Positions 2,338-18,491 of a DNA stretch of 18,491 nt are shown here, one piece after another. The notes under the pieces are model-generated. The model ran no database searches. It was not told where the DNA came from and saw nothing but the letters and a program-made list of their open reading frames with translations. Within the stretch, counting starts at the first letter, position 1. Each line of letters opens with the position of its first letter. Source of the DNA: a bacterium (GTDB lineage Bacteria > Hydrothermota > UBA3072 > B12-G15); the NCBI GenBank assembly GCA_003646055.1, contig QNDZ01000010.1:1-18491 (forward strand), written 5' to 3'. Made by a program: the position numbers and the translations under genes.

Positions 2338-3681
2338 TCAGGTGCTGTTTTGTGGAGGGGGTTGCTCTGTTATGAGTTTGTATATCCTCACTGGGTTTTC
2401 CTTGCCCTTGACCTTGATAAGATAGGGACCCTGGAATGTGAATGGGACATTAATCTCATTGAATACCCTTTCAGATATAATAATCTCACCGCCCCCAGCC
2501 ACCTCCTGTAGTCTTGAAGCAAGATTCACGGTATCACCAATAACCGTGTAATCAAGCCTTTCCTGAGAACCAATATTACCCACGACTGCCTCTCCTGAAT
2601 TTATACCAATACCAATGCTCATGGTGGGCTGTCCAAACCTCTTCCTCCTCTCATTGATTTTCTGGATTTCCTTCTGTATATCCACTGCAGACATCACTGC
2701 CCTGTTCGGGTCATCTGAATGTTCAATGGGTGCACCATAAACAGCCATGAGACAGTCGCCAATAAACTTATCAATTGTCCCTTCGTATCTGAATACAACA
2801 TTGGTCATTGCTGAAAGGAGTTCGTTCAGAAGTGCAACAACCTGTTCTGGCGGAAGTTTCTCTGAGAGGGGGGTGAATTTTCTGACATCCGCAAAAAGCA
2901 CTGTTACCTTTTTCCTTGTCCCTTTCAAAAGATTCACATACTTGTCAGGGTCTTTGAATATCTCCTCTGCAACCTGATGGGAAACATATCTCCTGAAGGC
3001 ATCCTTTATCTGCTCCTTCTCCTTCAAACTCTTTGCCATGTTGTTGAATGCCTCTGTTAATTCACCTATCTCATCCCTTGATTTTATCTTAATCCTTACA
3101 TCGTACTTTCCTTTTGCAATCTGCTGGACACCATGAACAAGTTGCTTTATAGGTCTGCTCATGAAACTGGATAGTATCACAGAACCAATTATACCAAGAA
3201 ATAGGCCTATGGATGAAATAATTATTAAAATCAGTTGAATCTTCTGGGTTGTCGATTCAATCCTTCCAATGTCAAGACCAATATAAACCTTCCCAATCTC
3301 CTTTTTACCGGCAAGAAGAATGGGGTGTACAACCCTGTAAACATTTCCGGGGAATTTATAGTCATTCACATTTTTCCCGATCCATCTCACATCGTTATGT
3401 GCCCTTATCCTGCCTTCCCTGTCTGTGATAAATGCATAGATTACCCCCTCGTTCTTTGAAGCGTCTGCTACGATTGTTGCAAGGTAAAGGTCATCATTTG
3501 TTATCAGGGGGTCTTCAGCATTCAGGGCAATCATTCTTCCTATTAGTTCACCCTGGAGTTTAATCTCATGGGATAGCGCTTCCCTCACCCTGTCAAGGGT
3601 GAAGTAGAAAATAAGAAGTGTAACAATTGTCAGGAGGAGGAAAATCAGTATTATAAACTTCAGCCTTATGGATATTCTCAT
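2338..3681 (-). CDS. Membrane-bound class III adenylate cyclase with extracytoplasmic sensor and HAMP domain
   Basis: Makes cAMP from ATP at the inner membrane. The 447 residues show TM1 (~7-29), an extracytoplasmic sensor domain (~30-145, single-Cache-like; not assigned to a family), TM2 (~149-172), a HAMP linker (~172-224) and a class III cyclase catalytic domain (~255-437). Key residues are visible: metal-binding D265 (VLFADVRKF) and D309 (FIGDCLMAV), the adenine-specifying K305, and transition-state N386 and R390 (GDTVNLASR). The position usually held by the second adenine-specifying Asp is T379 (DYTVIGD), which marks subclass IIIb, a group known for bicarbonate responsiveness in some members. 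The ATG follows the stop of the barrel-TPR gene by 3 bp and has no Shine-Dalgarno, so translation is probably coupled. It is complete, and its place between a T9SS-like barrel and a C25 peptidase suggests it reports on the envelope. Confidence 0.93.
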   Translation of the reverse strand: MRISIRLKFIILIFLLLTIVTLLIFYFTLDRVREALSHEIKLQGELIGRMIALNAEDPLITNDDLYLATIVADASKNEGVIYAFITDREGRIRAHNDVRWIGKNVNDYKFPGNVYRVVHPILLAGKKEIGKVYIGLDIGRIESTTQKIQLILIIISSIGLFLGIIGSVILSSFMSRPIKQLVHGVQQIAKGKYDVRIKIKSRDEIGELTEAFNNMAKSLKEKEQIKDAFRRYVSHQVAEEIFKDPDKYVNLLKGTRKKVTVLFADVRKFTPLSEKLPPEQVVALLNELLSAMTNVVFRYEGTIDKFIGDCLMAVYGAPIEHSDDPNRAVMSAVDIQKEIQKINERRKRFGQPTMSIGIGINSGEAVVGNIGSQERLDYTVIGDTVNLASRLQEVAGGGEIIISERVFNEINVPFTFQGPYLIKVKGKENPVRIYKLITEQPPPQNST

Positions 3682-3684
3682 AAA

Positions 3685-5547
3685 TCAGTCAGACTTTTTG
3701 AGTTCCTTTAATTTAAGTTTTGCCCTCTGGATGTTCTCTTTTGCATTGGGGTAATTAGGATAGAGTTTCAATGCCTTTTCCCAGTATTTTATTGCCAGTT
3801 CATAGTTGTTTTTTGTATAGGCTTCAATCCCTAATATATAGTATCTGTCTGCTTCGTCTTTCCTGTTTTTGACCATTGTTTTTCCAATCTTTTCAAGATA
3901 CCCCAGTGCAGTCTTGTTTCCAGGTTGATACTCCAGCACCTTCTCAAAGTATCTTTCTGCAGAGGATATATCACCGTTTGCATAAGCCTTTTTACCCTTT
4001 GACAGATAGAATTTGACCTTTTGAGAGATAAGTTCATTGATTTTAGACTTTCTCTTCAGGAGGCTCTTGTTTCCTTTGTACTTTTTCAAAAGTTTATCAA
4101 CAAGGTATGTGGCAGATTTGAGTTTCTCCTGCTTTATGTAAAGGTCAATCTTTTTAATTCCAGAGGAAACTTCTTCCAGCATCTTGTTTTTTGCACTGGA
4201 AATATAATTTTTCACCTTTTTGTTTGTTGGGTCTTTTTTGAGGAGTTTTTCCCATATTGACATTGCCCTGCTGTAATCCCCCATTCTATAATATTTTAAG
4301 GCAAGTTCCATTTCCCTTGTGGATATGGATTTTACACCCCTTCTTATTTTTTCTTCAGCCTTCCTTTTAAGTTTTATGGCCGTCTGATTTGTTGAGTCAA
4401 TGGAGAGTGCTTTCCCGAAGTAATAGACTGCATTCAGGTAATCACCAGATGCCATCTTATTTTTACCAAGGCTTATATATTTCTCTACTTCCTGTGCATT
4501 CAGAATATTGGTCACCTTATCAAGCCATTGTTTTGCATCCCTGTTGTTTGGATTCCATATAAGGGAAAGGTCAAAGTAGTTCATCGCCTCTTTGTATTTC
4601 TTTTCCTTGAAATAAGAGATTCCCTGTTCAACAAGTTTGTCACTCATCATCCTCTCTTTTGAGAATGTCTCCTGAACAGCAATCTTTTTAGGTTTCTCCT
4701 CCCTTCCAGGAGAATATGAAATTGTAAAGAAATGGGAAACCCCAAGATTGCTTCCGGGGATTGCTGCATAGTTTATTGAAAGGGTTTTCAAGTTCAGACC
4801 AAATCCCATTGTGATTCCCTTGAAGAGTCCAGAGGATGTAATGTCAGGGTTGTATCCAGCCCTCAGGGAGAATATCTCAACAGGAGAAAACTCTATTCCT
4901 GCATTTGCAGATAAGCCTGCTTTCAGGGTGTATCTTATGTCCACAACTGGATGAAGTTTTTTATCAAACAGATTCAGTCCTCCACCTGCCTGAACAGTGA
5001 TTGGAAGTGAGGTTCTCAATATTCTTGTTCCAAGGTTTGTTATGCTCAATCCGGCATTAAACATTTCATCTGTGTATTTCACTCCAGCATTAAGAAAGAC
5101 CCCTGTTCCACCTGAATGTTCTATCTTGAAATTACCGATGTTCAGGCCTGCACCAAGAAAGAGGTTGTTCAGCCTCATTCCATAGTCTATGTGTCCAATA
5201 AGAAAGTAGGAACTGTAATACGATAGATTCCAGGGGTCATCTTCAGGTCTGTATTCTATACCACCTGTATAAAAACCCCTCAAGCCAAAACCCATGCCCT
5301 TTTCACCATTAAGTGGAATAATGCTGGATATGGAGATTAGATGGCTTCCGAGAAAATAGTATGAATAGGCTGAAGAGAAGTTGAGTCCCTTAAACTCCCC
5401 TGCAATTGCCGGGTTAAAGTATGCCCCCTCAGGTGAGATAATTCCTGTATAAGCACCACCAAGGGCAATCACCTTCCCGTCAATCTTCATATTAAGAAAA
5501 CTCAATCCAGGTGATGTCTGTGAGAAAAGCAGAATCAGGGATATCAT
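3685..5547 (-). CDS. PorV/PorQ-like outer-membrane barrel fused to a C-terminal TPR array
   Basis: 620 residues with a short N-terminal hydrophobic signal (MISLILLFSQ). Residues ~18-280 are a glycine- and aromatic-rich beta-barrel that opens with the family signature GGAYTGIISPEGAYFNPA, as in PorV/PorQ/UPF0164 proteins, and runs through alternating barrel strands to HFFTISYSPG. After a basic linker (~280-298), residues ~299-615 are lysine-rich helical repeats of TPR type (for example ELALKYYRMGDYSRAMSIWE and ILGIEAYTKNNYELAIKYWE). In T9SS, PorV shuttles cargo from the translocon and, with PorU and PorZ, forms the attachment complex. PorV itself has no TPR array; since C-termini of outer-membrane barrels face the periplasm, the TPRs probably bind a periplasmic or peptidoglycan-linked partner. 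Its ATG overlaps the stop of the giant upstream gene (ATGA), with a GGGGTGG site just before it. The barrel family is fairly sure; the PorV role is inferred. Confidence 0.82.
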   Translation of the reverse strand: MISLILLFSQTSPGLSFLNMKIDGKVIALGGAYTGIISPEGAYFNPAIAGEFKGLNFSSAYSYYFLGSHLISISSIIPLNGEKGMGFGLRGFYTGGIEYRPEDDPWNLSYYSSYFLIGHIDYGMRLNNLFLGAGLNIGNFKIEHSGGTGVFLNAGVKYTDEMFNAGLSITNLGTRILRTSLPITVQAGGGLNLFDKKLHPVVDIRYTLKAGLSANAGIEFSPVEIFSLRAGYNPDITSSGLFKGITMGFGLNLKTLSINYAAIPGSNLGVSHFFTISYSPGREEKPKKIAVQETFSKERMMSDKLVEQGISYFKEKKYKEAMNYFDLSLIWNPNNRDAKQWLDKVTNILNAQEVEKYISLGKNKMASGDYLNAVYYFGKALSIDSTNQTAIKLKRKAEEKIRRGVKSISTREMELALKYYRMGDYSRAMSIWEKLLKKDPTNKKVKNYISSAKNKMLEEVSSGIKKIDLYIKQEKLKSATYLVDKLLKKYKGNKSLLKRKSKINELISQKVKFYLSKGKKAYANGDISSAERYFEKVLEYQPGNKTALGYLEKIGKTMVKNRKDEADRYYILGIEAYTKNNYELAIKYWEKALKLYPNYPNAKENIQRAKLKLKELKKSD

Positions 5548-8500
5548 TTAACCACCCCGAGTTTTTTGATAATAACCCTTCTGTTATTATTCCCCGTGGC
5601 AATAAATCTAACAAAGTATATGTCTGTTCCAAGGTTCTGGATGGAGAAGGGTATATCGTGAAGAATGCCACCTGGATAATCCTCATTCAATAGGGTTTGA
5701 ACAAGCTTTCCTGTAAGATTGTATAATTCTACACGAACCCTGGCATCCTGATTTAGATAAAATACAATGTGAGCCTGGTCACCCCTAACAGGATTTGGAT
5801 AGATAAAGCATGAGTCATCAGGGAAGAAGGCGCCCTTTGTCCCTATAAATACTCCAAGTAGTGTATCACCCGAGTTCCCCATTGTATCTGAATAGGTGAT
5901 GTAAAGTTGGGCATCCCCGGAAGGCATTCCACTCACAAGTCCACTGGCAACGTACTCTGTATCCATGCTTGTAGGTACAACATCCAGATAAAGTGTATCA
6001 TCCCCTGAGATAAGTGAAACCACAGGGGAATGAGAGATAAATTCTTCTGAAGATATATAAACAAAGATTGAATCTCCAATGTAAATGGTATCAGAATAGT
6101 TGACCTCAATCAGTGGAGGGATTGTGTCAGTGTATGTTATAAACACCTGTGATGAATCTATTCCAGTATTGTTCCTCAGGTCTGTACCACGGGCAACAAG
6201 ATAGGCCATTCCAAGGGATATTCCATTCAGATACACATGACCCCCATAGGTGAGGTGGCCTGTTTGAACAACCGAGCATACAAGTGAATCACCATTCACA
6301 TCGTACAGAACTGATGTGGGTACACCGGCAAGTGATTCAGATGAAACTATTGTGAAATGTAGTGTGTCACCAAGGAAGCCTGTATCAGGTGCAGTTATTG
6401 TTAATACAGGTGGGATTGTGTCCAGGGAATCTATAAGTATTGGCTTTATCTCCAGTGTTGAGTTCCCGGAAACATCCGAGGCATAGACCCTGATTTCACC
6501 CATACCCGTTGATAGGCCAGAAACAAGTAGTGAGCCTGCATAGGTGTAGTTGTCTATCTTTGTGACGGTGAAATCAAGTGAATCATTGAAGGAATCAATG
6601 AGCCTTGCAACAGGGTTTGAAATTAGAGGTTCATCGGTTAATAACCTTATCCCCAGTTCTGTGTTTAGATAGGTGGTTTCAGGTGCCTCTATGGTGATGC
6701 TTGGTCCTGTAGTATCTGTATGGGTTGCGATATAGAATCTAATTGTATAGGGAAAAGAATTTCCCTCTGTCCAGACAACGTATGGTTGCTCTGAGGAGGA
6801 TGGGGAGAATGCAGAATCCCCTGTTGTTGATATTACCTCTGTTTCCAGCCAGCCATTCTGGTGGTCATGGATTTTCATGCAAACCTTCTCATCCTCCTGC
6901 CAGAAGAGATAGAGATTACCAAGGGAATCCAGAGACAGGGTGGGATGTTTTGAAATGCCAATTGTGTTTGTGAGGTTTGTATCAGGGAGCCACCCAGTTC
7001 CAGGTTTGTACTGTTTATAATAAATATCAGTGTTCCCAAGACGGGTATCCTCCCAAACAAGGTGGATACAACCCAGACCGTCTGATATGGCAAAGGGATG
7101 TGAAAGGTTGCCCGTGCCTGTTATGGTTGTTTCTGCCTGCCACGTTCCATTATATCTTCTCATTTTTATTGCAGGCTGTGGGGTTCCAGTATCATCGCAG
7201 TAGAAAACAATCTTATCACTTCCATATTTTATTACAAATGGGTCAAAGGAATTTCCAGAGGACTGGGAAAGATTTGCTGGTGAACTCCATGAGAGTGTAC
7301 TGGCATAGTAGATTGAGTAGTAGATTTCACCTGTTGCCTTCTGTTCCCAGACAAGCATCACATCACCATTATCATCACCAACTGCTGAGGGCTTGACTGT
7401 ATTACCAATTGAAGTAATCTGCTCAGGGGATTCCCATACTCCACCAGCATTCCTCCTTGCGAATATACGGGTCAACCCTGATATTTTTTCCTCCCATATC
7501 ACAAATATGTTGTTGTCGCTCCCTGTTAAAAGTATTAGGGGATTACCTGATGTATCCGCTTTTGAATTACTCAGGTCAACAGGCTCAGAGAATACATTAC
7601 CATCATCTGTATAGGTGTAGAAGATTTCTCCATAGGGGAATGTTGTGTAAACTATGTGCACTCTGCCCGAACTAATGTCATATGCTACTTTTCTGCCTGA
7701 TGGAATCTGGGTGGCTGTATTTAATCCTGAAACCATGGGTTGCTTGCTCATCTGAATAGATGTTGATACTGAATCAAGGTTCAGAAATCCATCAACTATG
7801 AAGACTCTGAAATCATATAAACCATTATTCCTTAAGACACCAGAGGAGTCAAAACCATCCCATACCATTATGGAATCAGGATATCCGAACCCTTCATCCT
7901 GCTGTATTGTATCACTACCCTGAACAATGGATGCCTTCCAGTAATATATACCCTGCCTGTCAGAGACATTTAAGTGAATGGCAATGGTGTCATTGGACAT
8001 ATCACCATCAGGTGAAAAAACTCCGAATGAAGGGCTTGCTGTTAGGGTGTCTATCAAGGTATCCGTATAACTCAAAACACCTGAGTGGTCACCAAGGAAG
8101 AGGGTATGGGTACCTGGATTGAACATAGTGGTGTAATTGATGTTGGTTGTTTCTGTCTGCGGGATGCTTATCCATTCTGTACCACCATTGGATAGCATAA
8201 AAACCCTGTTGTTGAAGTCAGAGGCATAAACAAGGAAAGGATATCCTGTTATTGTGTACAAATCCCTTATCCATAGATCAATGCCAAGGGAAGGACTCCA
8301 GGTTCCTCCAGCATCATTGGATATGTATATGGATGGTAAGGCTGGGTAATCAGGTGAAGACCAGAGGAGGTTTCCAAAATAACCATCACATGCGATAGCC
8401 CTGAAATTTCCAGATGGAAGCCCTGAATTCAAAAGGTTAAATGTTCCTCCGTTGTCATCACTTCTCAGAATCCCATCCCTTGCAGTTATGAAAAGGGTAT

Positions 8501-9872
8501 CGGGATTTGTGACAGGATAAGCAATCTTTGTCATATTGATTCCTGAATAGACATTTGTCCAGTTGATACCACCATCAGTGCTCCTGTATATCTCAGAAGA
8601 GGTTACTGCAAAGGCTGTTGCGGGATTGTTAGGGTTAAACTTCACATCATTAAAGTAGTCAAGGGTCATTAACCTTTCCGACCATGAGGTGCCATGGTTG
8701 GCAGTTCTGTATAGAACATTGTATCCGCCTGCAAGAAATATATTTGTGTCTGCAGGACTTATTGAAATGGTTAAAAATAGAGGAATAGGTGGAGGATTCC
8801 CCATCCTTGACCAGGAGAGGCCGTTGTCATCACTTATGAATATACCTCCAAGGGTTGCAGCATAAAGGGAATGACGATTCACAGGATTGATTTCAATATC
8901 CCAGACAATACATGCATCAAGCCCCTGATTATTTTCATACCAGAGGTTTCCAAGGTCTGTGGATATATAAACACCACCACATGTTCCTGCATAAATTGTA
9001 TCACTTATTGCAATTATAGAGTTTGTAAAGTCATAAACAAGCCCGTTGTTCGTCTTGTAAAGACTGTCATTTCCTATTAATCCAGTCCATACACCTGCTG
9101 TCTGGGTGGAGACAAAAATTGAATCAATATCAGGAACCTTTGTGATTCCTGATACAGGTGCAAGAATATTTGTTGATTGCCATGGAGGTGTAGTAATCAT
9201 ATACAAAAGTCCAGCATCACATCCTGCATAAAGTATATTCTGGGTGAAGAGGAGGGCATTCACATTATTGGGAGAGTTAATCTTGCTCCATGCAACGGGG
9301 CCAATAGAACTTCTGAAAATACCTCCATTTGTCCCTGCATAGATTGTGTAGGTTGATGAATCATAGGCAAAGGAGGTAACCGTGAGCGTATCTATCTGGG
9401 AATTGCTTGCGCTGAACCAGTTGATACCCCCATTTGTACTTCTGTAAATCCCATGTTTGTCTGTTCCAAGAAAAATTATGGTATCATCAACCGCATAGAT
9501 TGCACTCACAGTGAATGTATCAGGAATGTCAGTATTTTTAAACCAGCTACCTCCACCATCCATGGTTTCCCATAGACCACCAGATTCAACTCCAGCAAAA
9601 ATTGTATCCTTACCCTTAGCATAAACCACAATCACATTCTCAAACCTGAAATCAGGGGATACATTGGACCATGCACCAAACACATTTTTGTAAACACCGT
9701 TCAGAAGAAGGCCTGCATATACATTACTTCCGTCATAGGTGAGGCTATTCACAAAACCGCCGAAAGGACCATTCCTTGTCCAAGTGTTGTATCCCTTCAC
9801 CTGGAAGTTGGTATTCCCATATTCTTTTAATGCTGAAAGATCCAGCGCCAACAGAAGCAGTATTATATGCAT
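5544..9872 (-). CDS. Giant secreted two-propeller protein with Ig-like repeats and T9SS sorting domain
   Basis: 1442 residues. After a short hydrophobic N-terminus (MHIILLLLALDLSA), residues ~25-605 form a sortilin/BNR-type beta-propeller with repeated Asp-boxes such as STNGGINW (145-152), SDDNGLSW (347-354) and STDGGINW (431-438). A FlgD-like Ig domain follows (~612-706, SPSFGVFSPDGD), then a second propeller (~715-1050) built on VWEE/VWEQ/VWEDT strands. Three ~98-residue Ig-like repeats (1053-1348) each open with DTxxP. The end (1349-1442) is a type A T9SS sorting domain: FIYPNPVRGD, VRVELYNLTGKLVQTL and a terminal KKLGVVK. Such proteins cross the outer membrane through T9SS and are anchored or released at the surface. 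Double propeller plus sorting domain recalls PorZ of the attachment complex, but this protein is far larger and could simply be cargo. It is the first gene of its operon and has no Shine-Dalgarno. Confidence 0.92.
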   Translation of the reverse strand: MHIILLLLALDLSALKEYGNTNFQVKGYNTWTRNGPFGGFVNSLTYDGSNVYAGLLLNGVYKNVFGAWSNVSPDFRFENVIVVYAKGKDTIFAGVESGGLWETMDGGGSWFKNTDIPDTFTVSAIYAVDDTIIFLGTDKHGIYRSTNGGINWFSASNSQIDTLTVTSFAYDSSTYTIYAGTNGGIFRSSIGPVAWSKINSPNNVNALLFTQNILYAGCDAGLLYMITTPPWQSTNILAPVSGITKVPDIDSIFVSTQTAGVWTGLIGNDSLYKTNNGLVYDFTNSIIAISDTIYAGTCGGVYISTDLGNLWYENNQGLDACIVWDIEINPVNRHSLYAATLGGIFISDDNGLSWSRMGNPPPIPLFLTISISPADTNIFLAGGYNVLYRTANHGTSWSERLMTLDYFNDVKFNPNNPATAFAVTSSEIYRSTDGGINWTNVYSGINMTKIAYPVTNPDTLFITARDGILRSDDNGGTFNLLNSGLPSGNFRAIACDGYFGNLLWSSPDYPALPSIYISNDAGGTWSPSLGIDLWIRDLYTITGYPFLVYASDFNNRVFMLSNGGTEWISIPQTETTNINYTTMFNPGTHTLFLGDHSGVLSYTDTLIDTLTASPSFGVFSPDGDMSNDTIAIHLNVSDRQGIYYWKASIVQGSDTIQQDEGFGYPDSIMVWDGFDSSGVLRNNGLYDFRVFIVDGFLNLDSVSTSIQMSKQPMVSGLNTATQIPSGRKVAYDISSGRVHIVYTTFPYGEIFYTYTDDGNVFSEPVDLSNSKADTSGNPLILLTGSDNNIFVIWEEKISGLTRIFARRNAGGVWESPEQITSIGNTVKPSAVGDDNGDVMLVWEQKATGEIYYSIYYASTLSWSSPANLSQSSGNSFDPFVIKYGSDKIVFYCDDTGTPQPAIKMRRYNGTWQAETTITGTGNLSHPFAISDGLGCIHLVWEDTRLGNTDIYYKQYKPGTGWLPDTNLTNTIGISKHPTLSLDSLGNLYLFWQEDEKVCMKIHDHQNGWLETEVISTTGDSAFSPSSSEQPYVVWTEGNSFPYTIRFYIATHTDTTGPSITIEAPETTYLNTELGIRLLTDEPLISNPVARLIDSFNDSLDFTVTKIDNYTYAGSLLVSGLSTGMGEIRVYASDVSGNSTLEIKPILIDSLDTIPPVLTITAPDTGFLGDTLHFTIVSSESLAGVPTSVLYDVNGDSLVCSVVQTGHLTYGGHVYLNGISLGMAYLVARGTDLRNNTGIDSSQVFITYTDTIPPLIEVNYSDTIYIGDSIFVYISSEEFISHSPVVSLISGDDTLYLDVVPTSMDTEYVASGLVSGMPSGDAQLYITYSDTMGNSGDTLLGVFIGTKGAFFPDDSCFIYPNPVRGDQAHIVFYLNQDARVRVELYNLTGKLVQTLLNEDYPGGILHDIPFSIQNLGTDIYFVRFIATGNNNRRVIIKKLGVVK
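5829..6716 (-). repeat. Three tandem ~98-residue Ig-like repeats within the giant T9SS protein
   Basis: Residues 1053-1150, 1151-1248 and 1249-1348 of the giant protein are three consecutive units of about 98 to 100 residues. They open with DTTGPSITIEAP, DTIPPVLTITAP and DTIPPLIEVNYS and share later landmarks: a YxGDS/LGDT/LNTE strand, an SGL/NGI/SGM turn, and a YASDVSGN / RGTDLRNN / TYSDTMGN turn. They probably act as a stalk between the propellers and the sorting domain. The units have diverged clearly, so the duplication is old. Confidence 0.75.
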
Positions 9873-10134: not shown

Positions 10135-11205
10135 ATGCTGGAAAAGAAGTTTGAAATTATCAGATATGCCAATTGCTGGGAAGATACGGAAATACTTTTA
10201 AAGGCCCTTTCAATTAAAAAGAGTGGGAAATATCTATCCATAATTTCAGGGGGTGATAATACTCTTTCCCTCCTTACAGAAGACCCTGATCTTGTGGTTG
10301 GTGTTGATATCAGTCCTGCCCAGATTGCTCTATTCTACCTGAAAATCGCTGCATTCAAAAATCTCTCTCACGATAATGTGCTGAAATTCTTTGGAATAGT
10401 AGAATCGGATGAAAGGATTGAGATATACAACACCATAAAAAGGGATATGCCGGAAGGGGCACAGATTTACTGGGACAATCACCCTGGTATCATAAAAAAA
10501 GGAATTATTTTTGCAGGTAAATTTGAGCGATACTTTGCCATTTTCAGAAGATACATTTTGCCTCTGGTTCACAGAAGAAAAACCATTGAAAAACTATTCG
10601 CCCTTAACACAAGAAAGGAGAGGCTTGAGTTTTTCAAAAGGAATTGGAACAACTTCTTTTGGAAACTAATATTCAGGATATTTTTCAGTAAATTCCTTAT
10701 GGGGCATCTTGGTAGAGACCCCGAATTCTTCCGTTATGTGAATGAACCCGTTGCAGTTAATATTAAATGGCGGGTTGATAGAGGAATTATAAATGTTCCA
10801 GCATCTGACAACCCATATGTTGACTTCATACTCCATGGTAATTTCAAAGTTTGCCTCCCTTATTATTTGAGAAAAAAAAATTTCCAGAAGATAAAGGATA
10901 GGCTTGACAGGATAAAAATTGTCCAGGGGCCCGTAGAAAAAGCACTGATTTTAAGATACGATGGATTCAACCTCTCCGATATTTTTGAGTATATGGATTA
11001 TAACAGTTTCAAGAATATATATGGGCAGATTCTAAGAAGTGCAAAAAAAGGTGCCAGAATTGTTTATAGAAACATGCTTGCACCACGAGAATCTCCGCCT
11101 GAATACAAAAAGTTCGTAGTCTCCCATGCTGGTATTGCAAGGGAATTCCTGAAGAGGGACAGAGCATTTTTTTATTCCAGAATTGTAATTGAGGAGAAAC
11201 TATGA
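10135..11205 (+). CDS. BtaA-like (DUF3419) SAM-dependent 3-amino-3-carboxypropyl transferase
   Basis: 356 residues, soluble or peripheral at the membrane. It matches the DUF3419/BtaA pattern: a SAM site in SIISGGDNTLSLL (35-47) and VVGVDISPAQIALFYLKIAA (54-73), a YWDNHPGIIKKGIIFAGKFE segment (112-131), and a C-terminal Rossmann-like part (IYGQILRSAKKGARIVYRNM, 295-314). BtaA moves the aminocarboxypropyl group of SAM onto diacylglycerol, the first step to betaine lipids. The N-methylating partner BtaB is not in the window, so the product may stay an unmethylated homoserine ether or the acceptor may be another lipid alcohol. It is slightly shorter than typical BtaA. First gene of a three-gene operon; its end overlaps the next start by 4 bp. 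Family assignment is good; substrate unknown. Confidence 0.82.
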   Translation: MLEKKFEIIRYANCWEDTEILLKALSIKKSGKYLSIISGGDNTLSLLTEDPDLVVGVDISPAQIALFYLKIAAFKNLSHDNVLKFFGIVESDERIEIYNTIKRDMPEGAQIYWDNHPGIIKKGIIFAGKFERYFAIFRRYILPLVHRRKTIEKLFALNTRKERLEFFKRNWNNFFWKLIFRIFFSKFLMGHLGRDPEFFRYVNEPVAVNIKWRVDRGIINVPASDNPYVDFILHGNFKVCLPYYLRKKNFQKIKDRLDRIKIVQGPVEKALILRYDGFNLSDIFEYMDYNSFKNIYGQILRSAKKGARIVYRNMLAPRESPPEYKKFVVSHAGIAREFLKRDRAFFYSRIVIEEKL

Positions 11206-12563
11206 GTCCTGTTCTACTTGAGGTAATTAAGGCGCTCGGTTTCGGTTGTGGATATATATTTCTTTTTATAATAGCAGAGGTTATCCACAAAAAGAAATCT
11301 GTTCCGGTTGAGTGGACAAGGAAAGGCGTCCATTTTCTAAGTGCATCAATCTCCATTGTGTTTCCCCTAGTGTTTAAATATACATTAACCCTCTTTATAC
11401 TTGCTGTTTCCTTTTTAATAATTCTCATAGTAGGTGAAAAAAAGGGGCTCTTGAGCTCCATTGGTGGCGTGGAAAGGAAAACAAAAGGTGAGTTCTATTT
11501 CCCCATTTCAATCTTCATTGTTTATGTCCTTTCGCACAACAACTTTGTCCTTTATGCGGTCTCTATGGCTGTTCTCGCTATCTCTGACCCACTTGCTGCC
11601 CTTATAGGGAAGTCGTACGGTCATGTAAAATACAGGGTGCAGACAGATCTCAAGAGCCTTGAAGGCTCTGTAACCTTCTTCTTCGCAACTTTTCTTATTG
11701 TTCATATACCTATACTACTATTCACAAACGTAAGCAGGGTAAACTCCCTCCTTATCAGTCTGGTTGTTGCTATTCTTGTAACATGCCTTGAGTCCATCTC
11801 CCTGGAAGGAAGTGATAATCTGATAATTCCTCTTGGAACATTTTTCATTCTTTACAAACTTATAACCAAACCCACTGAAATGGTCTTTCTTCAGGTAATG
11901 ATTCTAATTTTTATTATCGTCACTACTATTATTCTTACCTACAGGGTGCATAAAATAGGTTCAAGCGGACTTATTACAATAATACTTACAAGTTACGCAG
12001 CATGGGCTCTTTGTGGTCTCAATTACTACATTCCAACTCTGCTCTTTTTCTTTGGTTTTCTCTTTATGAATATTGTATTCAGGGTGAAACCCGGTGACGA
12101 TCCGGCCTTATTCAGAACAAAGGCGGTTCTGAAACTTGTCTATATTCCCATAGCCATTGTTTTTGCTGCAAATTTCTTTTCCCTTGAAGATTTTCTTTCC
12201 ACAGTCTTCCTTGTTTCTGTTTCCACACATTTAACGCTCCTATGGAGGCACTGGTATCTTGACAGAAACGTTGTCAGCAGGTTTTTTAGACGATGGAGAA
12301 AGATTTTTATCCATTGTGGTTCAGTGGTCTCTTTTTTGATCGTAGTTCTTCCCTGGCTTTTTATCTTTAGAAGAGAGCGAATTCTTGTGCTTTCAGCAGT
12401 TCTATTCATATTTAATCTATTGGCCGACGCCTTTTATACTATCCTTCGTTCAACCATATACAGAGAGATAGACTACATGAAAAACCGGGCACTCAGAAAT
12501 TTCGTAAACCTCTTCATAACAATGCTATTCCTGATACAAAAATTTCTGGGGAGGATAGGATGA
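11202..12563 (+). CDS. Polytopic dolichol/phytol-kinase-like protein with extra C-terminal membrane domain
   Basis: 453 residues with roughly 14-16 hydrophobic segments. The first ~220 residues carry the marks of the CTP-dependent dolichol/phytol kinase (SEC59/VTE5/CDP-alcohol-like) family: RKGVH (40-44), ISDPLAALIGKSYG (127-140), KSLEGS (151-156) and EGSDNLIIPLG (202-212). These enzymes phosphorylate isoprenoid alcohols in the membrane. The remaining ~230 residues are another membrane domain that I do not recognise with confidence. Its start (ITIILTSYAAWALCGLNYYI) slightly resembles DUF92/VTE6, which would make a second, isoprenyl-phosphate kinase half. The ATG overlaps the preceding stop (ATGA) and has a GAGGAG site. 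With the BtaA-like neighbour it points to a polar lipid pathway. Confidence 0.78.
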   Translation: MSPVLLEVIKALGFGCGYIFLFIIAEVIHKKKSVPVEWTRKGVHFLSASISIVFPLVFKYTLTLFILAVSFLIILIVGEKKGLLSSIGGVERKTKGEFYFPISIFIVYVLSHNNFVLYAVSMAVLAISDPLAALIGKSYGHVKYRVQTDLKSLEGSVTFFFATFLIVHIPILLFTNVSRVNSLLISLVVAILVTCLESISLEGSDNLIIPLGTFFILYKLITKPTEMVFLQVMILIFIIVTTIILTYRVHKIGSSGLITIILTSYAAWALCGLNYYIPTLLFFFGFLFMNIVFRVKPGDDPALFRTKAVLKLVYIPIAIVFAANFFSLEDFLSTVFLVSVSTHLTLLWRHWYLDRNVVSRFFRRWRKIFIHCGSVVSFLIVVLPWLFIFRRERILVLSAVLFIFNLLADAFYTILRSTIYREIDYMKNRALRNFVNLFITMLFLIQKFLGRIG

Positions 12564-14503
12564 ATTCTGAAAGAAAATGGTTGTTCATTATTCTTCTCAT
12601 TTTGCTCGTTACCCTGTCACTTTTTTATTCAACAAAGGCAAAAATAACTAACAGCCTCAGCATCTGGTTTCCTGAAAACGAACCGACTCTTCTTGAATAC
12701 AGAAAATTCCTTGAGAAATTCGGGAACGATGAACAACTGGTGATTGGTCTTGAATCAGCCACCCCATTTACTCTTCAAACAAACATTGAAAAACTCAAAG
12801 TAATGGCAAAAGAACTTAAATCCATACAGGGTATTGATGTACCTCTGGGGCCATTTTCTCCATTTCTCAATGAAAAGGGAAGAAGGAGATTTTTATCAAA
12901 GGATTCCATGTGTGTTTTAATTGTTCTGCCAATTAAAAAAGGACTGGATATAGAAGAGAAAAGACACGATATTGTGAATCAGGTAAAGCATGTGCTTGAC
13001 AAATATCCATACAGGTATCACATTGCTGGCACAACCGCAATTTACGAAAGATTAAACTGGCTTACCCGTGAGAATGTGGGTTATTTTTTTATCCTTGTGT
13101 TTGTCTATATGTTTATATTATCCGGCCTTGTGTTCAGAGATGTAAAAATATCCATTCTTACATCATGCACTACAATAATAACAACAATAATTCTTATTGC
13201 ATCTTTTGGTATCAGTGGTGTTCCGATAAATATGATAACCTCCATTCTCCCTGTGCTTGTGCTTATCTATGGGCTTTCTGATATGGTTTATATTGCCTAC
13301 ATCACCAGAATTAGTAAAAAAACCGATATAAAAAGGATATTATTCCCCTGTTTTCTTACATCCCTCACAACCTTTGCGGGATTCCTTTCCCTTGCTGGCT
13401 CAAAAATCCCCTGTGTCAGGCAACTTGGCATATTCGGTGGAATTGGAGTTATGGCCGAATTTCTGGTGACCATGCTCTTATTTCTGGCCTTCTTTAAAAA
13501 CCTGAAGCCAGCCCGTCCAATCCTTCTGCACAGGTTTCACAGGTGGGAAGAAGAATTTGTCAGAAAAAAGGGAAATGTTATCATTGGCATTTCTGTCGTT
13601 GTCTTTGTTTTATTCGCAGGTGGCATGCTGAACCTGAAAATAGATACCTTCACCCTTGGAATGTTCAGAAAAAATGATGTGATAAGACAGGACTCAGAAT
13701 GGATAGAAAAAAACATAGGTTACTATCTTCCAATGGAGTTTCTAATAAATCCCCATGGTGACTTTGAAAAGATAGTTACTATTGAGAATGTCCTGAGTGA
13801 AAGAGGATTCAGGTGCCTTTCACTAACGGACTTTAACCTTAATTTATTGAGCATCCCCGGTTTCAACATTCTACTTCCAGAACAAAATTACATTTCTCAG
13901 GACGGTAAATGGATAAGGTTTACGGTGATGGTTCCCGTGGTAAGCGCCAAAAAAATTAAGAGCCTAATGGATAGTATAAAGGAGATGATGGAAGAGGTTG
14001 AGGGCATATCAGTAAAAGAAACTGGTTATCTTCCTCTATATGTCAAATTGATTGATTACATCAATAGAAGCCAGATGGTAACCTTTCCTGTATCTATACT
14101 GATAGTAACAATGATGATCCTCTTTATTGCAGGCTGGGAAAAGGGTCTCTCCAGTATTCCACCAAATCTATTACCCATTGTGGGTGTTCTTGGAATTATG
14201 GGGTTTTTCAAAATCTATCTTGATATCGGGACTATTATTGTCGTTCCAATTCTCATAGGAATCGCTGTTGATGATACAATACATTTTATCTATGCCTCAA
14301 AGCAAGGTGAGATAGAAGTGATCAGACATCCAATGGGAATAACATCCTTTATCCTTTGTACAGGTTTCCTCTTTCTACTCCTCGCTCCATTAAATACCGT
14401 AAACCAGTTTGGGTTCCTTGCTTCAACCGGTGTTCTTATTGCATATTTTGGAGATTCTCTTCTTCTTCCCTCATTACAACGTTTGAAAAGGATTCATAAA
14501 TAA
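12560..14503 (+). CDS. RND/MMPL-superfamily predicted lipid exporter
   Basis: 647 residues, inner membrane, with the duplicated RND layout: TM1 (~7-24), extracytoplasmic loop (~25-170), TM2-6 (~173-312), TM7 (~338-357), second loop (~358-505), TM8-12 (~508-640). Acidic residues sit in the expected TM4 and TM10 positions (YGLSDMVYIAY, D241; GIAVDDTIHF, D571-D572), consistent with proton-driven transport. The two loops are much shorter than in HAE-type drug pumps. The layout fits the single-protein MMPL/HAE3 type that moves lipids such as hopanoids and mycobacterial glycolipids. The start overlaps the kinase-like gene by 4 bp, with a GGGGAGG site. Likely exports the lipid made by its neighbours, which is inferred. 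Its stop overlaps that of the facing ligase gene by 10 bp. Confidence 0.85.
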   Translation: MNSERKWLFIILLILLVTLSLFYSTKAKITNSLSIWFPENEPTLLEYRKFLEKFGNDEQLVIGLESATPFTLQTNIEKLKVMAKELKSIQGIDVPLGPFSPFLNEKGRRRFLSKDSMCVLIVLPIKKGLDIEEKRHDIVNQVKHVLDKYPYRYHIAGTTAIYERLNWLTRENVGYFFILVFVYMFILSGLVFRDVKISILTSCTTIITTIILIASFGISGVPINMITSILPVLVLIYGLSDMVYIAYITRISKKTDIKRILFPCFLTSLTTFAGFLSLAGSKIPCVRQLGIFGGIGVMAEFLVTMLLFLAFFKNLKPARPILLHRFHRWEEEFVRKKGNVIIGISVVVFVLFAGGMLNLKIDTFTLGMFRKNDVIRQDSEWIEKNIGYYLPMEFLINPHGDFEKIVTIENVLSERGFRCLSLTDFNLNLLSIPGFNILLPEQNYISQDGKWIRFTVMVPVVSAKKIKSLMDSIKEMMEEVEGISVKETGYLPLYVKLIDYINRSQMVTFPVSILIVTMMILFIAGWEKGLSSIPPNLLPIVGVLGIMGFFKIYLDIGTIIVVPILIGIAVDDTIHFIYASKQGEIEVIRHPMGITSFILCTGFLFLLLAPLNTVNQFGFLASTGVLIAYFGDSLLLPSLQRLKRIHK

Positions 14504-15846
14504 TTTTTCACTATCTTTTTCAACTTTCGGGAATCGACCTTTGCCCCGTGTCTTGGATCCTTTGGAATCTTTTTCATAAATACCACTCCAGGGTTTATTC
14601 CTGTTTTTTCAATAGACTTTGTTTTTATAACTTTTTCAAGTTTTAGGTCTCGCCTGCCTTCAACCACTATGTAAAGACAATTTTCCTTAGCAAGAGGGAA
14701 AATAGCCCTTCCAGTATCCTCAAACATCCTTTGAAATACATAGGGATAAATAATCCTCTGATTCAAAATAGATAAATCCATCTTCCTTCCAAGGAGTTCA
14801 ATCTCTCCTTTCCTGATACGAACCACGTCCCCAGTATTAACCCAGTTTTCACCAGGAAATCTGACATATAATATCCCTCCATCCTTCTCAATGAAAGAAA
14901 TCCTGTGTTCAAGGTCGGACTCTATCTTTCCAGCGTAATAACCATCCCCTTTCCATTCCACGTATTCCTGGCCACTTACAACAGATATTGGTTCAATCTG
15001 AGTGCATCCGTAAAAAATAACAGTTTTGTTTATAATTCCAGTAGATTCAAGAAAAACTGTGGGTATTGTACTTCCCCCTGTATAAATCCTATGGAGCCTT
15101 TTCCCAATTTCTTTGTCAACGGCAAAAGGCAAAGCACTTGATGAAATAAACAACCTATCAAGGCTCAGTCTTTCCATTTCTTCTTTTAAAAAATTCTTTT
15201 TGAGTTTTCTGGGTGGAAGAAGGGTTGAACGCATATAGTAGAGGTTTAGCAAAACAAGGTTGGGAAACATTACAAAATCAACAAAATCACCATCCTCTAT
15301 GTGTCTTGATAGTCTATCTACCTGCCTGAAAAGTTCTCCATATGTCCTGGTTACCTTGGTTGGTATTCCGCTACTTCCTGTGGTAAATGTAATCACCGCA
15401 GGGAAATTATTTTCAATACCGAGAAGAACATCTCCTCCACATCCTTTCCCCCTTCTAATAAACTCCTTTTTTAAGCCCATCATTCTGAGAAAGACCTTTC
15501 CTGCTGGAGATGTGATTGCAAACCTTCCCTTTATACTTTTGCACACCCTCCTGAAAATCTCTCTCTTCATCCAAGGTTCAACGAAAACTGCACACGCACC
15601 CCTTGCCAGCACACTTATAACAGCTACATACATATCTATAGAAAAAGGTAGCATTATTAGAACTTCATCTCCAGGACCAACACCCTTTTCTTTGAGAACA
15701 CCAGCCATTTCATAAACGCTATCCCGCAAACCCCCGTAAGTGATGCTCTTAAAACCATAAGGCACAGGTTGATAAAGGGCTATTTTCCCTTCGTTGAGAT
15801 TCTCAGTAAAAAGGTATGAAACAGGATTACTTGAGTTCCTTTTCAT
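14494..15846 (-). CDS. Short ANL-superfamily adenylating enzyme (OleC-like AMP-dependent ligase)
   Basis: Activates a carboxylic acid, probably an acyl chain, as an acyl-adenylate. From the ATG at 15846 it has 450 residues, short for the family. Motifs in that numbering: phosphate loop TFTTGSSGIPTK (153-164), A5 YGCTQIEP (279-286), A7 NTGD (337-340), GRKMD (353-357), and C-terminal DPRHGAKVDSRKL with candidate catalytic K436. The RHxAK motif and the ...GRK...YP...F hinge region resemble OleC beta-lactone synthetases and related fatty-acid ligases. Oddities: the A5 Glu is Gln, and the usual Gly/Lys pattern after GRxD is missing (LSILNQRIIYP). The frame is open back to a TTG at 15876, but that site has a badly spaced Shine-Dalgarno. 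The ATG with AGGGTG ~10 nt upstream is preferred. It overlaps the GNAT gene by 20 bp. Confidence 0.85.
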   Translation of the reverse strand: MKRNSSNPVSYLFTENLNEGKIALYQPVPYGFKSITYGGLRDSVYEMAGVLKEKGVGPGDEVLIMLPFSIDMYVAVISVLARGACAVFVEPWMKREIFRRVCKSIKGRFAITSPAGKVFLRMMGLKKEFIRRGKGCGGDVLLGIENNFPAVITFTTGSSGIPTKVTRTYGELFRQVDRLSRHIEDGDFVDFVMFPNLVLLNLYYMRSTLLPPRKLKKNFLKEEMERLSLDRLFISSSALPFAVDKEIGKRLHRIYTGGSTIPTVFLESTGIINKTVIFYGCTQIEPISVVSGQEYVEWKGDGYYAGKIESDLEHRISFIEKDGGILYVRFPGENWVNTGDVVRIRKGEIELLGRKMDLSILNQRIIYPYVFQRMFEDTGRAIFPLAKENCLYIVVEGRRDLKLEKVIKTKSIEKTGINPGVVFMKKIPKDPRHGAKVDSRKLKKIVKNYL

Positions 15847-16750
15847 AGAGTGAATACACCCTGTAAATCCTGCCAAACCTTCTGGAAAATATATGGGTTG
15901 ATATGGATTCTCTCATGAAGGCATGTATAAATCTTTTACAACCCATCTCCAATCCTGCAAGATACATCTGGTATATAAGCAGTGTACCTGTGAATCTGTT
16001 CCTGTATTCTGGCAGAACAGCCACTGTTTTTTCAATAAGGGTATTACCCCAGGGATATCCAAATATGAAACCTGCAGGCTGATTATCCAGCCAGGCTATA
16101 AAAAGTAAACTATTGTTTTTCTCCTCCGAATGCATAGCTATAAACTCCTGAAATGGAATTTTTTCAAAGAGAAATGCCTTTTTAAATGCCTCACAGGAAA
16201 TTTTATATACAATCTCCATTGTCTTAATATCCTTCTTGCCCTCTTCTATTCTTAATCCCTCTTTTTTCCCACGCTTCATCCCCGGTTTCAGATACCTGAG
16301 AACACCCTCAAACTCATCCACAACATAGGAATAGTATTTTTTTACCACCTTCATTCCCCATTCCTTCAACCATTCGTTTATATGGAAAGGATAGTCCATC
16401 TCTCCAGGGAAAAGTGGATTCTCTGGATTGGACGATGGAATTCTGTAAGTATGCCATGTGTTAAAGTCCATGGGTGCAAAATATCTCTTAACGCCCTGGT
16501 GTGAAAACCAGTCCTCCATAAACTCAAGCATAGCAAAGAATTCCTCTTTTTCCTCTGGCGCATGTAGAAATCCCATTCCGCCAATGGTCTCTTTGTTCAA
16601 TTTTTTTGAATAGATCGTAAAACAGCCGGTTTCACCAAGGACAAAAGAAATTTTGTAGCCTCTGTTTCCGTAAACCTCAAAGAGTTCCTTCTCTTTCTCA
16701 GACCAGAATCCTTTCTGTGGAATCTCTTCTACAAGTTCAACACTATCCAT
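15827..16750 (-). CDS. GNAT-family acyltransferase with N-terminal extension
   Basis: 307 residues, no signal or membrane segments. The C-terminal ~135 residues have a GNAT fold: an early helix pair (~174-205), strand IAWLDNQPAGFIFGY (218-232), strand TVAVLPEYR (242-250), a degenerate acetyl-CoA loop (RNRFTGTLL, 250-258) and the ending helix-strand (MESISTHIFSRRFG-like region, ~280-300). The N-terminal half looks like a diverged GNAT-like domain with VKRYFAPMDFNTWHTYRIP (87-105) and a YYSYVVDEF strand, a two-domain layout seen in YghO-type proteins. The acceptor is unknown; the neighbours suggest an amine on a lipid head group. The start overlaps the stop of the upstream PEP-enzyme gene by 8 bp and has GGGAGA before it. 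The loop lacks the usual Gly-x-Gly, so acyl-CoA binding needs testing. Confidence 0.78.
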   Translation of the reverse strand: MDSVELVEEIPQKGFWSEKEKELFEVYGNRGYKISFVLGETGCFTIYSKKLNKETIGGMGFLHAPEEKEEFFAMLEFMEDWFSHQGVKRYFAPMDFNTWHTYRIPSSNPENPLFPGEMDYPFHINEWLKEWGMKVVKKYYSYVVDEFEGVLRYLKPGMKRGKKEGLRIEEGKKDIKTMEIVYKISCEAFKKAFLFEKIPFQEFIAMHSEEKNNSLLFIAWLDNQPAGFIFGYPWGNTLIEKTVAVLPEYRNRFTGTLLIYQMYLAGLEMGCKRFIHAFMRESISTHIFSRRFGRIYRVYSLYEKELK

Positions 16751-18491
16751 TTTTTTCTCCCAGTTTCCTGATCACACCTTTTGACCCATCCATCTCCACC
16801 ATATCTCCATCCTTCAAAATTCTGGTCACCCCCCTCACACCCACAACGGCTGGGATTCCAATCTCCCTTGCAACAATTGCAGAATGGGATAGGAGACTTC
16901 CACGTTCAACTATGATTCCTTTGAACAAAGGAAAGATGGGAAGCCAACCCGGGTCTGTCTGTGGTGCTACCATGATATCACCTTTTATCTCCTGAGAATA
17001 TGGGTCTTTAATAATCTGAACCCTTCCTTTTACCACACCTGGTGAACATCCAAGACCTTTAAGCTCTCCTGGGAATTCCTCCTCCTTCCCCGATGGCAGA
17101 TGGATATAGGGAGGAACAACCGTTGTAAACCTTTCAGGTAGTTCTCTGTATTGATTTTTTCTGAACTCTCTTTTTCTGAGTCTAACAAGGGATTTTAAAT
17201 CCTGTGTAACAGATGTTCCGAATATATATGAAAAGATTTCCTGATGGGAGAGAAAGAATATGTCATCTTCTCTATCAATTACCCCTTGCTTAACAAATTC
17301 TTTTGCAATATTGAGGAAAAGTTCCCTAACGGCTCCGAATATATTGCTCCTGAATAGTCTCTGGTTCTCTCTGTATTTTATAAATCTCCGCGTATGGGAA
17401 AGAAGAAACTTAAAGAGTAGAAGGTGGAATAGATTGAATGGGAAGGGCCTGGAGTATATCATTTTCAATACCTGTTTTTCGGCCAGTTTCCGTTTATCCC
17501 TGCCCCTGGTATAGATAGTTGAAATATTTTCCTTTTCAACCATCTTCTTCAGTATTGAAAACAATTTCTCAGGCTTTTCCCTTATGTTGGGAATCTCTAA
17601 TTTTAATTCATTCACAGAACGGTTTCCATAATGGGAGAGAAATTCGTCAAAGAGTTCGTTTATCTCTTTATTCTCTTTTATTCTATAAAAAAACTCCCCT
17701 GAATTTCCTTTGAGAAGTAAATCTTTCAGTTCTGGATATGCTCGTATTCTTTCTGCAATCTCAGAGAGTTTCATTCCAACAAGTGCACTCTCCATATCCC
17801 CTTCTCCTGAAAGAAGCTGATTGTGCAGGGAAAGCCCATTTTCCGGGAAAAGGAAATTAACATATTTCTTCAAAAGTCCGTAAAAAATCATTGTGAAAAT
17901 ATCGTTGTTAATGGGAGGAAGCCAGTGATAAAGGAGTTTACCCTTCATCTGTTCATAAAGCCCTGCATATTCTTTTAAGGAAAGTTTCTTTTCCAGGTTT
18001 TTCCTGAAAAATTCCATTGCACTGTGGTATCTTCTGTTAAACTTTTCCATATTCCTGCTGTGGAGAACAAAGGAGAATAATATCCTTATGCCAACTTTTA
18101 CTATCTCGTAGATTCCTCTAATTCCTCCAAATCCAGGCTTTTCCCTGATGTCGTAGGAACTTTTCACTCCCATCATGCCTTCCATAAATTCCCTGTTTGC
18201 CTGGTAGGCCGGAAGAAAAGCAAGGGTAGTGTACCAGCTATCAAGGGAATAATAGACCCTGTTACTCAAAAAACCTATCATATTCCTGAACACCATACCA
18301 TGTTCATTAAGAATCTTCTGACTCACCCCGAGATTTTTCATAACGAGTTTGTAAACAATGGAGTAAACTTCATTTGCAAAGGAGAAGGTAAGAGGAGTTG
18401 TTGGACCCGAAAAGCTTTCAATTATATTTGAATTATCCCAGGTGAAACTATCCTTTATGGTGGTTATTGGTCTTGCCTGAAGAATAAAAAC
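16743..18491 (-). CDS. PEP-synthase / rifampicin-phosphotransferase-like protein (5' end off the right edge)
   Basis: The reading frame stays open from the stop at 16743 to the last base (582 residues). The first in-frame ATG (18341) is internal: the 50 codons above it encode VFILQARPIT, the motif that ends the ATP-grasp domain of PPDK/PEP-synthase enzymes, then WDNSNIIESFSGPTTPLTFSF, typical of the domain that follows. So the ATP-binding domain lies beyond the edge. A helical middle domain of ~465 residues includes RENQRLFRSNIFGAVRELFL and REDDIFFLSHQEI, as in rifampicin phosphotransferases. The C-terminus is the swivelling phosphohistidine domain (GLGCSPGVVKGR; ERGSLLSHSAIVAREIGIPAVVGV, catalytic H536 in window numbering). 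These enzymes move the ATP beta-phosphate through His to a substrate. The middle domain sets the substrate, which is unknown; neighbours suggest a lipid or its precursor. Confidence 0.88.
   Translation of the reverse strand, partial: VFILQARPITTIKDSFTWDNSNIIESFSGPTTPLTFSFANEVYSIVYKLVMKNLGVSQKILNEHGMVFRNMIGFLSNRVYYSLDSWYTTLAFLPAYQANREFMEGMMGVKSSYDIREKPGFGGIRGIYEIVKVGIRILFSFVLHSRNMEKFNRRYHSAMEFFRKNLEKKLSLKEYAGLYEQMKGKLLYHWLPPINNDIFTMIFYGLLKKYVNFLFPENGLSLHNQLLSGEGDMESALVGMKLSEIAERIRAYPELKDLLLKGNSGEFFYRIKENKEINELFDEFLSHYGNRSVNELKLEIPNIREKPEKLFSILKKMVEKENISTIYTRGRDKRKLAEKQVLKMIYSRPFPFNLFHLLLFKFLLSHTRRFIKYRENQRLFRSNIFGAVRELFLNIAKEFVKQGVIDREDDIFFLSHQEIFSYIFGTSVTQDLKSLVRLRKREFRKNQYRELPERFTTVVPPYIHLPSGKEEEFPGELKGLGCSPGVVKGRVQIIKDPYSQEIKGDIMVAPQTDPGWLPIFPLFKGIIVERGSLLSHSAIVAREIGIPAVVGVRGVTRILKDGDMVEMDGSKGVIRKLGEKNG

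Follow-up and report, generated by a model that had tools for sequence, protein, structure and literature searches.

A conserved gene unit joining a T9SS surface protein, a TPR-fused PorV-family barrel and a Cache-HAMP sensor: a candidate surface receptor and relay in Hydrothermota

Few routes are known that lead from an outer-surface protein to the cytoplasm in two-membrane bacteria. In the Bacteroidetes, the PorP-PorE-PG1035 and SprF-SprB systems place proteins with type B C-terminal sorting domains (CTDs) of the type IX secretion system (T9SS) on PorP-like barrels (PMC9143113). In Porphyromonas, PorA, a surface T9SS CTD protein, affects a sensor in the inner membrane and, through PorXY-SigP, the expression of genes (PMC7712824). 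The window analyzed here is the entire contig QNDZ01000010.1 (18,491 bases; contig C10) of a draft Hydrothermota genome designated G000 (assembly GCA_003646055.1; 1.87 Mb, 277 contigs, 80.6% complete). Three of its genes encode a secreted surface protein with a CTD, a PorV-family barrel extended by tetratricopeptide repeats (TPRs), hereafter barrel-TPR, and a Cache-HAMP sensor with an adenylate cyclase output. We are highly confident that these genes form a real and conserved unit, and assign a probability of about 0.58 to the sequence-based reading that the genes from 9872 to 2338 would encode a surface receptor with its relay, that is, a head on a cognate barrel, periplasmic TPRs and a sensor. 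This reading builds on the gene content, the conservation of the unit, the pairing of CTD sub-type with barrel, the swap of outputs on one sensor type and the broad agreement of the trees.

All four genes named in the original prediction, the fourth encoding a C25 peptidase, were confirmed, each on the negative strand (Table 1). The three unit genes are packed as in an operon, with a 4-nt overlap between the surface protein and barrel-TPR genes and a 3-nt gap between the latter and the cyclase gene. A scan for promoters and terminators found 19 promoter-like and five terminator-like sites, not above the numbers in shuffled sequence (23.5 and 7.2).

Table 1. Features of the three-gene unit and the adjoining peptidase gene in the window (TM, transmembrane; residue ranges refer to the respective protein).
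Feature	Coordinates	Strand	Assignment
Secreted surface protein, 1442 amino acids	5544..9872	-	Sortilin-Vps10/BNR propeller signature and extended middle region, with a T9SS type A CTD at the C-terminus; proposed exposed head
CTD of the surface protein	5547..5801	-	Sub-type of the barrel-TPR partners; sequence features here, [ST]D[IV]Y and a C-terminal IIKKLGVVK
PorV-family barrel with TPR tail, 620 amino acids (predicted outer membrane)	3685..5547	-	PorV/PorQ-family barrel and TPRs; proposed cognate anchor and periplasmic relay
Barrel part, residues 1-291	4675..5547	-	NF033709, 77.6 bits on the barrel part alone
TPR tail, about residues 300-605	3733..4650	-	TPR_2 in four stretches, best 567-599
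Sensor cyclase, 447 amino acids (predicted inner membrane)	2338..3681	-	TM-like 9-27, Cache (sCache_3_2) 34-147, TM-like 151-169, HAMP 170-221, class III cyclase 256-429
Gingipain-R-like C25 peptidase, incomplete at contig end	1..2271	-	C25 core, C25 propeptide and C25 Ig domain; RgpB 1cvr, 256.9 bits; judged outside the unit

The surface protein matches Vps10/BNR repeat families (PF15902, 61.3 bits; PF02012, 28.4 bits) and a sorting domain (PF18962, 28.7 bits) and nothing else in Pfam, while a search against solved structures returned no match at E ≤ 0.01. The type A CTD model TIGR04183 recognizes it with scores of 31.8 and 35.7 bits, above the cut-off of 23. Among the CTDs examined in its genome this one stands alone in its sub-type: a model built on 18 partner CTDs, all of other genomes, scores it at 77.4 bits, and 38 other CTD-like ends of G000 at no more than 33.0 bits, none of these 38 carrying the sub-type; the genome has 67 type A sorting-domain matches (E ≤ 0.001). 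An alignment of 19 partner CTDs (A4), of which the window CTD (97.5 bits) is itself a row, served as query against 147 genomes of the phylum, up to 37 candidates being scored in each. It gave 22 matches of at least 88 bits, the next being a contig-edge fragment at 64.8 bits and a full-length match at 56.7 bits. Nineteen of these matches are rows of A4 itself; the CTD genes of the other three (G034, G038 and G058:C10) lie directly upstream of barrel genes scoring 273-297 bits with the barrel-TPR alignment described below.

All 22 strong CTD matches, 19 of them model rows, adjoin a barrel-TPR-like gene, a pairing of one CTD sub-type with an adjacent barrel as found in PorP/SprF systems. A sensor gene is adjacent or within 1.4 kb in 18 of these loci, the exceptions being G017 and the three non-row loci; in G058 the sensor adjoins a second barrel-TPR gene, one that has no CTD gene upstream. 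The proteins attached to the CTDs differ: six partner proteins of 952-2097 residues carry Vps10/BNR propellers, Big_5 repeats or no Pfam domain besides the sorting domain; this domain has a match at E ≤ 0.01 in each of the six and attains Pfam's cut-off of 27 in three. Variable heads on a fixed barrel, tail and sensor would be the expected look of a receptor family.

The barrel was described in the original prediction as PorV-like and fused to TPRs. The fusion is borne out by matches to both PorV-family barrel and TPR models in the one protein, whereas the likeness to PorV holds at the level of the family: the PorV/PorQ subfamily model NF033709 (PorV_fam) gives 74 bits for the full protein and 77.6 for the barrel part, below its cut-off of 90, and the PorV model NF033710 gives 19.2 and 23.4 bits, far from its cut-off of 250. 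A profile of the barrel family matches the solved PorV structure 6h3i at 3.9e-25, which makes the PorV fold family likely. The termini of this barrel fold face the periplasm, and the TPR tail should therefore be periplasmic as well. Its last repeat (residues 566-599) is the best matched and among the most conserved parts of the family, with invariant columns in the alignment. No peptidoglycan-binding domain was matched in the tail by Pfam, and neither a PorP/SprF-family barrel nor a type B CTD was matched for the window proteins in Pfam at E ≤ 0.1 or in NCBIfam at E ≤ 1, libraries that presumably include models for both. At two other loci (L101 and L102) a CTD gene stands upstream of a barrel gene whose product has a C-terminus that looks OmpA-like by eye, possibly a peptidoglycan-binding tail in place of the TPRs.

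The sensor cyclase matches PF17203 (36 bits), PF00672 (60.2 bits) and PF00211 (96.1 bits), and its catalytic core aligns with solved adenylate cyclases such as CyaB (3r5g, 134 bits), as expected for a putative class III enzyme. The two TM-like segments flank the Cache domain, which should thus be periplasmic. G000 holds six matches to cyclic nucleotide-binding domains, and these six proteins could be receivers of cyclic AMP (cAMP).

Conservation of the unit was followed through the phylum. With the barrel part as query, 52 of 60 genomes, its own included, give a match at E ≤ 0.001, many within longer proteins, and some of 20 such neighborhoods show the pattern of CTD protein, barrel-TPR and Cache-HAMP protein. 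The 147 genomes were then searched with A1, an alignment of 11 barrel-TPR proteins, and the loci of the 37 listed matches of at least 340 bits, found in 30 genomes and including two split genes, were examined. A CTD gene was recognized directly upstream by hidden Markov model in 32 of the 37 loci, and a sensor gene is adjacent or within 1.4 kb in 19, G014 and G008 each having one intervening gene and G009 two; sensor genes that overlap the barrel gene by a few bases are, by their coordinates, downstream of it. Nine of the 19 nearby sensors end in a cyclase and eight in a SpoIIE phosphatase, the remaining two being cut by contig ends. Thirteen lie on the same strand as the barrel-TPR gene and six are convergent, all of the latter SpoIIE. 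Scans of three SpoIIE clusters (G107, G009 and G008) found HATPase and STAS proteins beside the phosphatase, accompanied in two by a TPR protein. Counted by genome (n = 147), barrel-TPR and sensor occur together in 26 (G001 by a contig edge), the barrel alone in five, the sensor alone in two and neither in 114, the absences being weak because only eight candidates per genome were scored with A1; this co-occurrence gives a Fisher p of 1e-21, uncorrected for relatedness. Open reading frame (ORF) picking in GC-rich DNA can choose antisense frames, and genes may be missed in other GC-rich loci annotated here.

What joins the two kinds of unit is the sensor half, which is conserved across them while the output domain is swapped between cyclase and SpoIIE. 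A 14-row alignment of the TM-Cache region (A3) gave 37 sensor matches of at least 115 bits in the same 147 genomes, the next being 101.7 bits; 20 of the 37 lie by a barrel-TPR gene (the 19 above and G001 at a contig edge), and six of these 20 are not in A3. Five genomes carry, at a distance from the unit, a second sensor with the other output, which is SpoIIE in G014 and a cyclase in G107, G109, G110 and G111, and G025 and G030 also have a separate SpoIIE sensor, the unit's own sensor being cut there before its output domain. Second sensors of this kind would allow a single barrel to serve both outputs. In family f11, orphan sensor cyclases (L181, L183, L185, L186 and L152) share neighbors with the complete unit of G104, judged by eye to be a LarE-like start and a gene for 362-396 residues, a pattern that would fit a loss of the barrel and CTD genes at these sites.

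Trees of the three proteins from 14 units bear on whether the parts have stayed together. The barrel and sensor trees largely agree: both split by output, cyclase versus SpoIIE (support 87/93 for the barrel and 100/100 for the sensor), and both contain the groups G003-G104 with G000, G050-G070 and G008-G009. G104, a member of family f11, groups with cyclase-type G003 of another family and not with the SpoIIE-type members of f11, indicating that barrel type goes with output rather than with family. The CTD tree recovers the groups of G003-G104 with G000 and of G050-G070, but not G008-G009.

Several observations weigh against the receptor and relay reading. No sensor is nearby in 18 of the 37 barrel-TPR loci, 13 of which belong to family f22 and some of which are on contigs that end shortly after the barrel, and conversely 17 of the 37 strong sensors are not beside a barrel-TPR gene. 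G017 has the CTD sub-type and barrel-TPR with no sensor match above 60.3 bits, and the 1-kb gap behind its barrel-TPR gene revealed no sensor remnant. G108 and G112 have a sensor and no barrel-TPR was found among the eight candidates scored in each. G014 and the long-branched G031 take different positions in the barrel and sensor trees, and the CTD tree is weakly resolved, with one of 11 inner branches starred and no clean split by output. Finally, the top ranks in the searches favor the unit because A1, A3 and A4 were built from unit members.

Loci outside the models were found beyond the phylum. A protein-database search with A1 gave 17 matches, two of them full-length. Titles of barrel-TPR records name candidate division WOR-3 (currently phylum Caldifarciminota), Stahlbacteria, Hydrothermus, Edwardsbacteria (Candidatus Edwardsbacteria, currently Edwardsiibacteriota), one Cloacimonadota, two entries called only 'bacterium' and a weak Treponema match (74 residues, 2e-7), which was dropped as a TPR resemblance. 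Scanning the contigs of 84,980 species with two peptide patterns from A1 yielded 13 loci, at least 11 of them on the same contigs as genomes already in the set or from their near kin. One locus of Candidatus Edwardsbacteria (L117), present in no model and resolved by stop-to-stop scanning, has in a row two ORFs that are STAS/HATPase-like by eye, a sensor-SpoIIE gene (A3, 159 bits), a CTD protein gene (A4, 103 bits) and a barrel-TPR gene (457 bits), an order absent from the 37 loci of the first phylum. The genome-by-genome search covered two phyla. In the second, a set of ten genomes, each genome has exactly one A4 match at E ≤ 1e-15. Three genomes placed with Edwardsiibacteriota and in no model (G147, G152 and G156) have the full unit with CTD scores of about 104 bits in one scoring and 107.6-110.2 in another, and the other seven have a lower-scoring CTD (60-64 and 65.9-68.9 bits, respectively) with no sensor match in the stretches examined around it. 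Six of these seven CTDs (L223-L228), which end in KAAVI[KR], adjoin a protein of 834-856 residues with a PorV-like barrel, the pair being flanked by another CTD protein; at the seventh the contig ends. In the titles and abstract openings of open-licence PMC articles we found no description of a T9SS in WOR-3, Stahlbacteria or Caldifarciminota, nor of a barrel-TPR/cyclase unit.

Taken as a surface receptor and relay, the unit would operate as follows. The 1442-residue protein would be exported by the cell's T9SS and held at the surface by its own barrel, which would recognize the CTD sub-type. The TPR tail of the barrel would reach into the periplasm and contact the Cache domain of the HAMP cyclase in the inner membrane, or bring a partner to it, such that binding or anchoring outside may change cAMP inside, with the signal presumed to run inward and the cyclase predicted to synthesize cAMP. 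In relatives the same head-barrel-TPR arrangement would drive a SpoIIE phosphatase as part of a partner switch with the STAS and HATPase proteins. More tentatively, and with rather less confidence than in the relay itself, these units may represent a new class of two-membrane receptors with exchangeable T9SS-delivered heads on a private CTD sub-type, a TPR arm switching Cache-HAMP enzymes, and an exchangeable output (cAMP or an anti-sigma partner switch), one barrel perhaps serving both in some genomes.

An explanation that we consider unlikely is an anchor complex that makes no signaling contact, in which barrel-TPR would be a fused PorP/PorE-like anchor of a single cognate CTD protein and the sensor would only regulate expression in response to its own periplasmic ligand. 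Cache domains can bind small ligands, and the pairing of CTD and barrel (22/22) is tighter than the link to the sensor (18/22). PorP-PorE-PG1035 is an anchor complex of this kind, PorE having TPR and propeller domains (PMC9143113). The lack of a peptidoglycan-binding domain match in the TPR tail argues against such an anchor, as does the barrel tree following the sensor output type, and the six convergent SpoIIE units indicate that the link to the sensor is not simple co-transcription.

We regard as improbable a sensor of secretion or assembly state, where the TPR tail would report barrel occupancy or a periplasmic build-up of CTD protein and the cyclase or phosphatase would tune T9SS output. 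Constancy of CTD, barrel and sensor beneath varying heads is in keeping with it, and there is a precedent in PorA of Porphyromonas, which affects the PorXY-SigP control of T9SS genes (PMC7712824). The large Vps10/BNR or Big_5 heads suggest an outward task instead, although the present data do not distinguish secretion-state from external-ligand sensing.

Weakest is the original prediction of a rearranged T9SS attachment complex with counterparts of PorU, PorV and PorZ plus a cyclase, which the side-by-side C25 peptidase, PorV-family barrel and propeller-CTD protein had suggested and which we set aside as highly improbable given PorU and PorV-like genes on other contigs, a gingipain-like and unconserved C25 gene and no PorZ match. 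PorZ combines two propellers with a CTD fold; the 1442-residue protein, read as PorZ-like, has no match to the PorZ model NF052228 of NCBIfam at E ≤ 1. What did survive is the proposal of a built-in sensor, since barrel-TPR, CTD protein and Cache-HAMP cyclase or phosphatase proved to be the conserved unit that became the main finding.

The C25 peptidase, proposed as the PorU of this complex, matches PF08126, PF01364 and PF03785, and its best solved match is RgpB-type. The PorU model NF033707 (cut-off 420) reaches 48.7 bits over residues 311-459, compared with 257 bits to gingipain R; because the window is the whole contig, the C-terminal end of the gene is cut off and any CTD there is not visible. 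It contains GHGD at 422 and ACLNG at 455, which we take to be the C25 catalytic His and Cys motifs and which, being common to gingipains, do not discriminate PorU. The gene starts 66 nt beyond the cyclase gene and was rejected as a unit member on its conservation. In a near relative (L119, isolate AUK059; ORFs as G001:C79; 95.9% DNA identity over 1,544 bases) the cyclase is intact, but of the C25 gene no more than a 59-bp remnant follows it, and a C25 match above 40 bits occurs in just one other annotated neighborhood, L171, with a weak one of 23 bits in L096. At L171 (G096:C5, 5679-7973) a 764-residue C25 protease with a CTD, scoring 538 bits to the window peptidase, lies 279 bp from a 386-residue ORF and a barrel-TPR gene that are divergent on the opposite strand.

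G000 seems to have T9SS parts of its own elsewhere, with seven C25, seven PorV_fam and one SprA_N match. Among its six other C25 genes, all scored with the PorU model, the one on contig C24 matches PorU end to end (positions 5-1093 of 1095) at 419.2 bits, 0.8 below the cut-off, and matches solved PorU 6za2; another on C160 reaches 260.8 bits. A full-length PorV-like barrel on C19 scores 185.5 bits with PorV_fam (cut-off 90) and 136 with PorV (cut-off 250) and matches 6h3i, and an SprA/Sov-like gene on C11 scores 179.5 bits with TIGR04189 (cut-off 200) over the part of the sequence present. These genes, with the gingipain-like score, make the window peptidase look like cargo. The prediction had named as decisive against itself full-length PorU and PorV elsewhere in the genome, with the window copies grouping with cargo proteases and unrelated UPF0164 barrels; most of this was found, except that the window barrel, whose family profile matches PorV, does not count as an unrelated UPF0164 protein. 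Contig C20 carries a further PorV/PorQ-family barrel (PorV_fam 181.3 bits; PorQ 83.7 of 220) in a cluster (L022, 191-10773) with a TonB-type receptor, two CTD proteins and a possible lipoprotein; a 702-residue protein of this cluster matches the end of the PorZ model at 33.4 bits (cut-off 260).

The remainder of the window (10135-18491) encodes a DUF3419 protein, a 453-residue protein without a match and an MMPL protein on the positive strand, and AMP-binding, GNAT and PEP-utiliser-domain proteins on the negative strand.

If the receptor and relay reading holds, sequence alone would outline an entire route, including a specific contact between TPR tail and Cache domain and two outputs that can be compared, in phyla known mostly from metagenomes. 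The findings further suggest that, outside the Bacteroidota, sorting domains of the T9SS fall into partner-specific sub-types, such that a CTD could predict its barrel.

Compared with described systems, the unit resembles PorP-PorE-PG1035 and SprF-SprB in that one CTD sub-type would be held at the surface by its own FadL-family barrel, shares with sprB-sprF the adjacency of the genes for CTD protein and barrel, and has, as with PorE, a TPR-containing protein predicted on the periplasmic side. Unlike in those systems, however, its CTD matches a type A model and its barrel, which itself carries the TPRs, matches PorV/PorQ-family models; a peptidoglycan-binding domain is not matched, and a cyclase or phosphatase sensor is added. 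Relative to the PorV/PorQ family, with which it shares a subfamily match and a profile match to solved PorV, the barrel lies below the model cut-offs and has a TPR tail of about 300 residues. The catalytic cores are those of CyaB-type class III cyclases and SpoIIE partner-switch phosphatases, but here both outputs stand behind one shared Cache-HAMP sensor type near a barrel-TPR gene. In FecA-FecR cell-surface signaling the signal of an outer-membrane barrel crosses the periplasm to reach a protein of the inner membrane; the principle proposed here is similar, while the output is an enzyme and not a sigma regulator, and neither a TonB plug barrel nor a FecR-type regulator is matched by Pfam in the four window proteins. 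The closest known signaling case is PorA-PorXY-SigP, which differs in its gene set and in using a two-component system and a sigma factor to control T9SS genes (PMC7712824).

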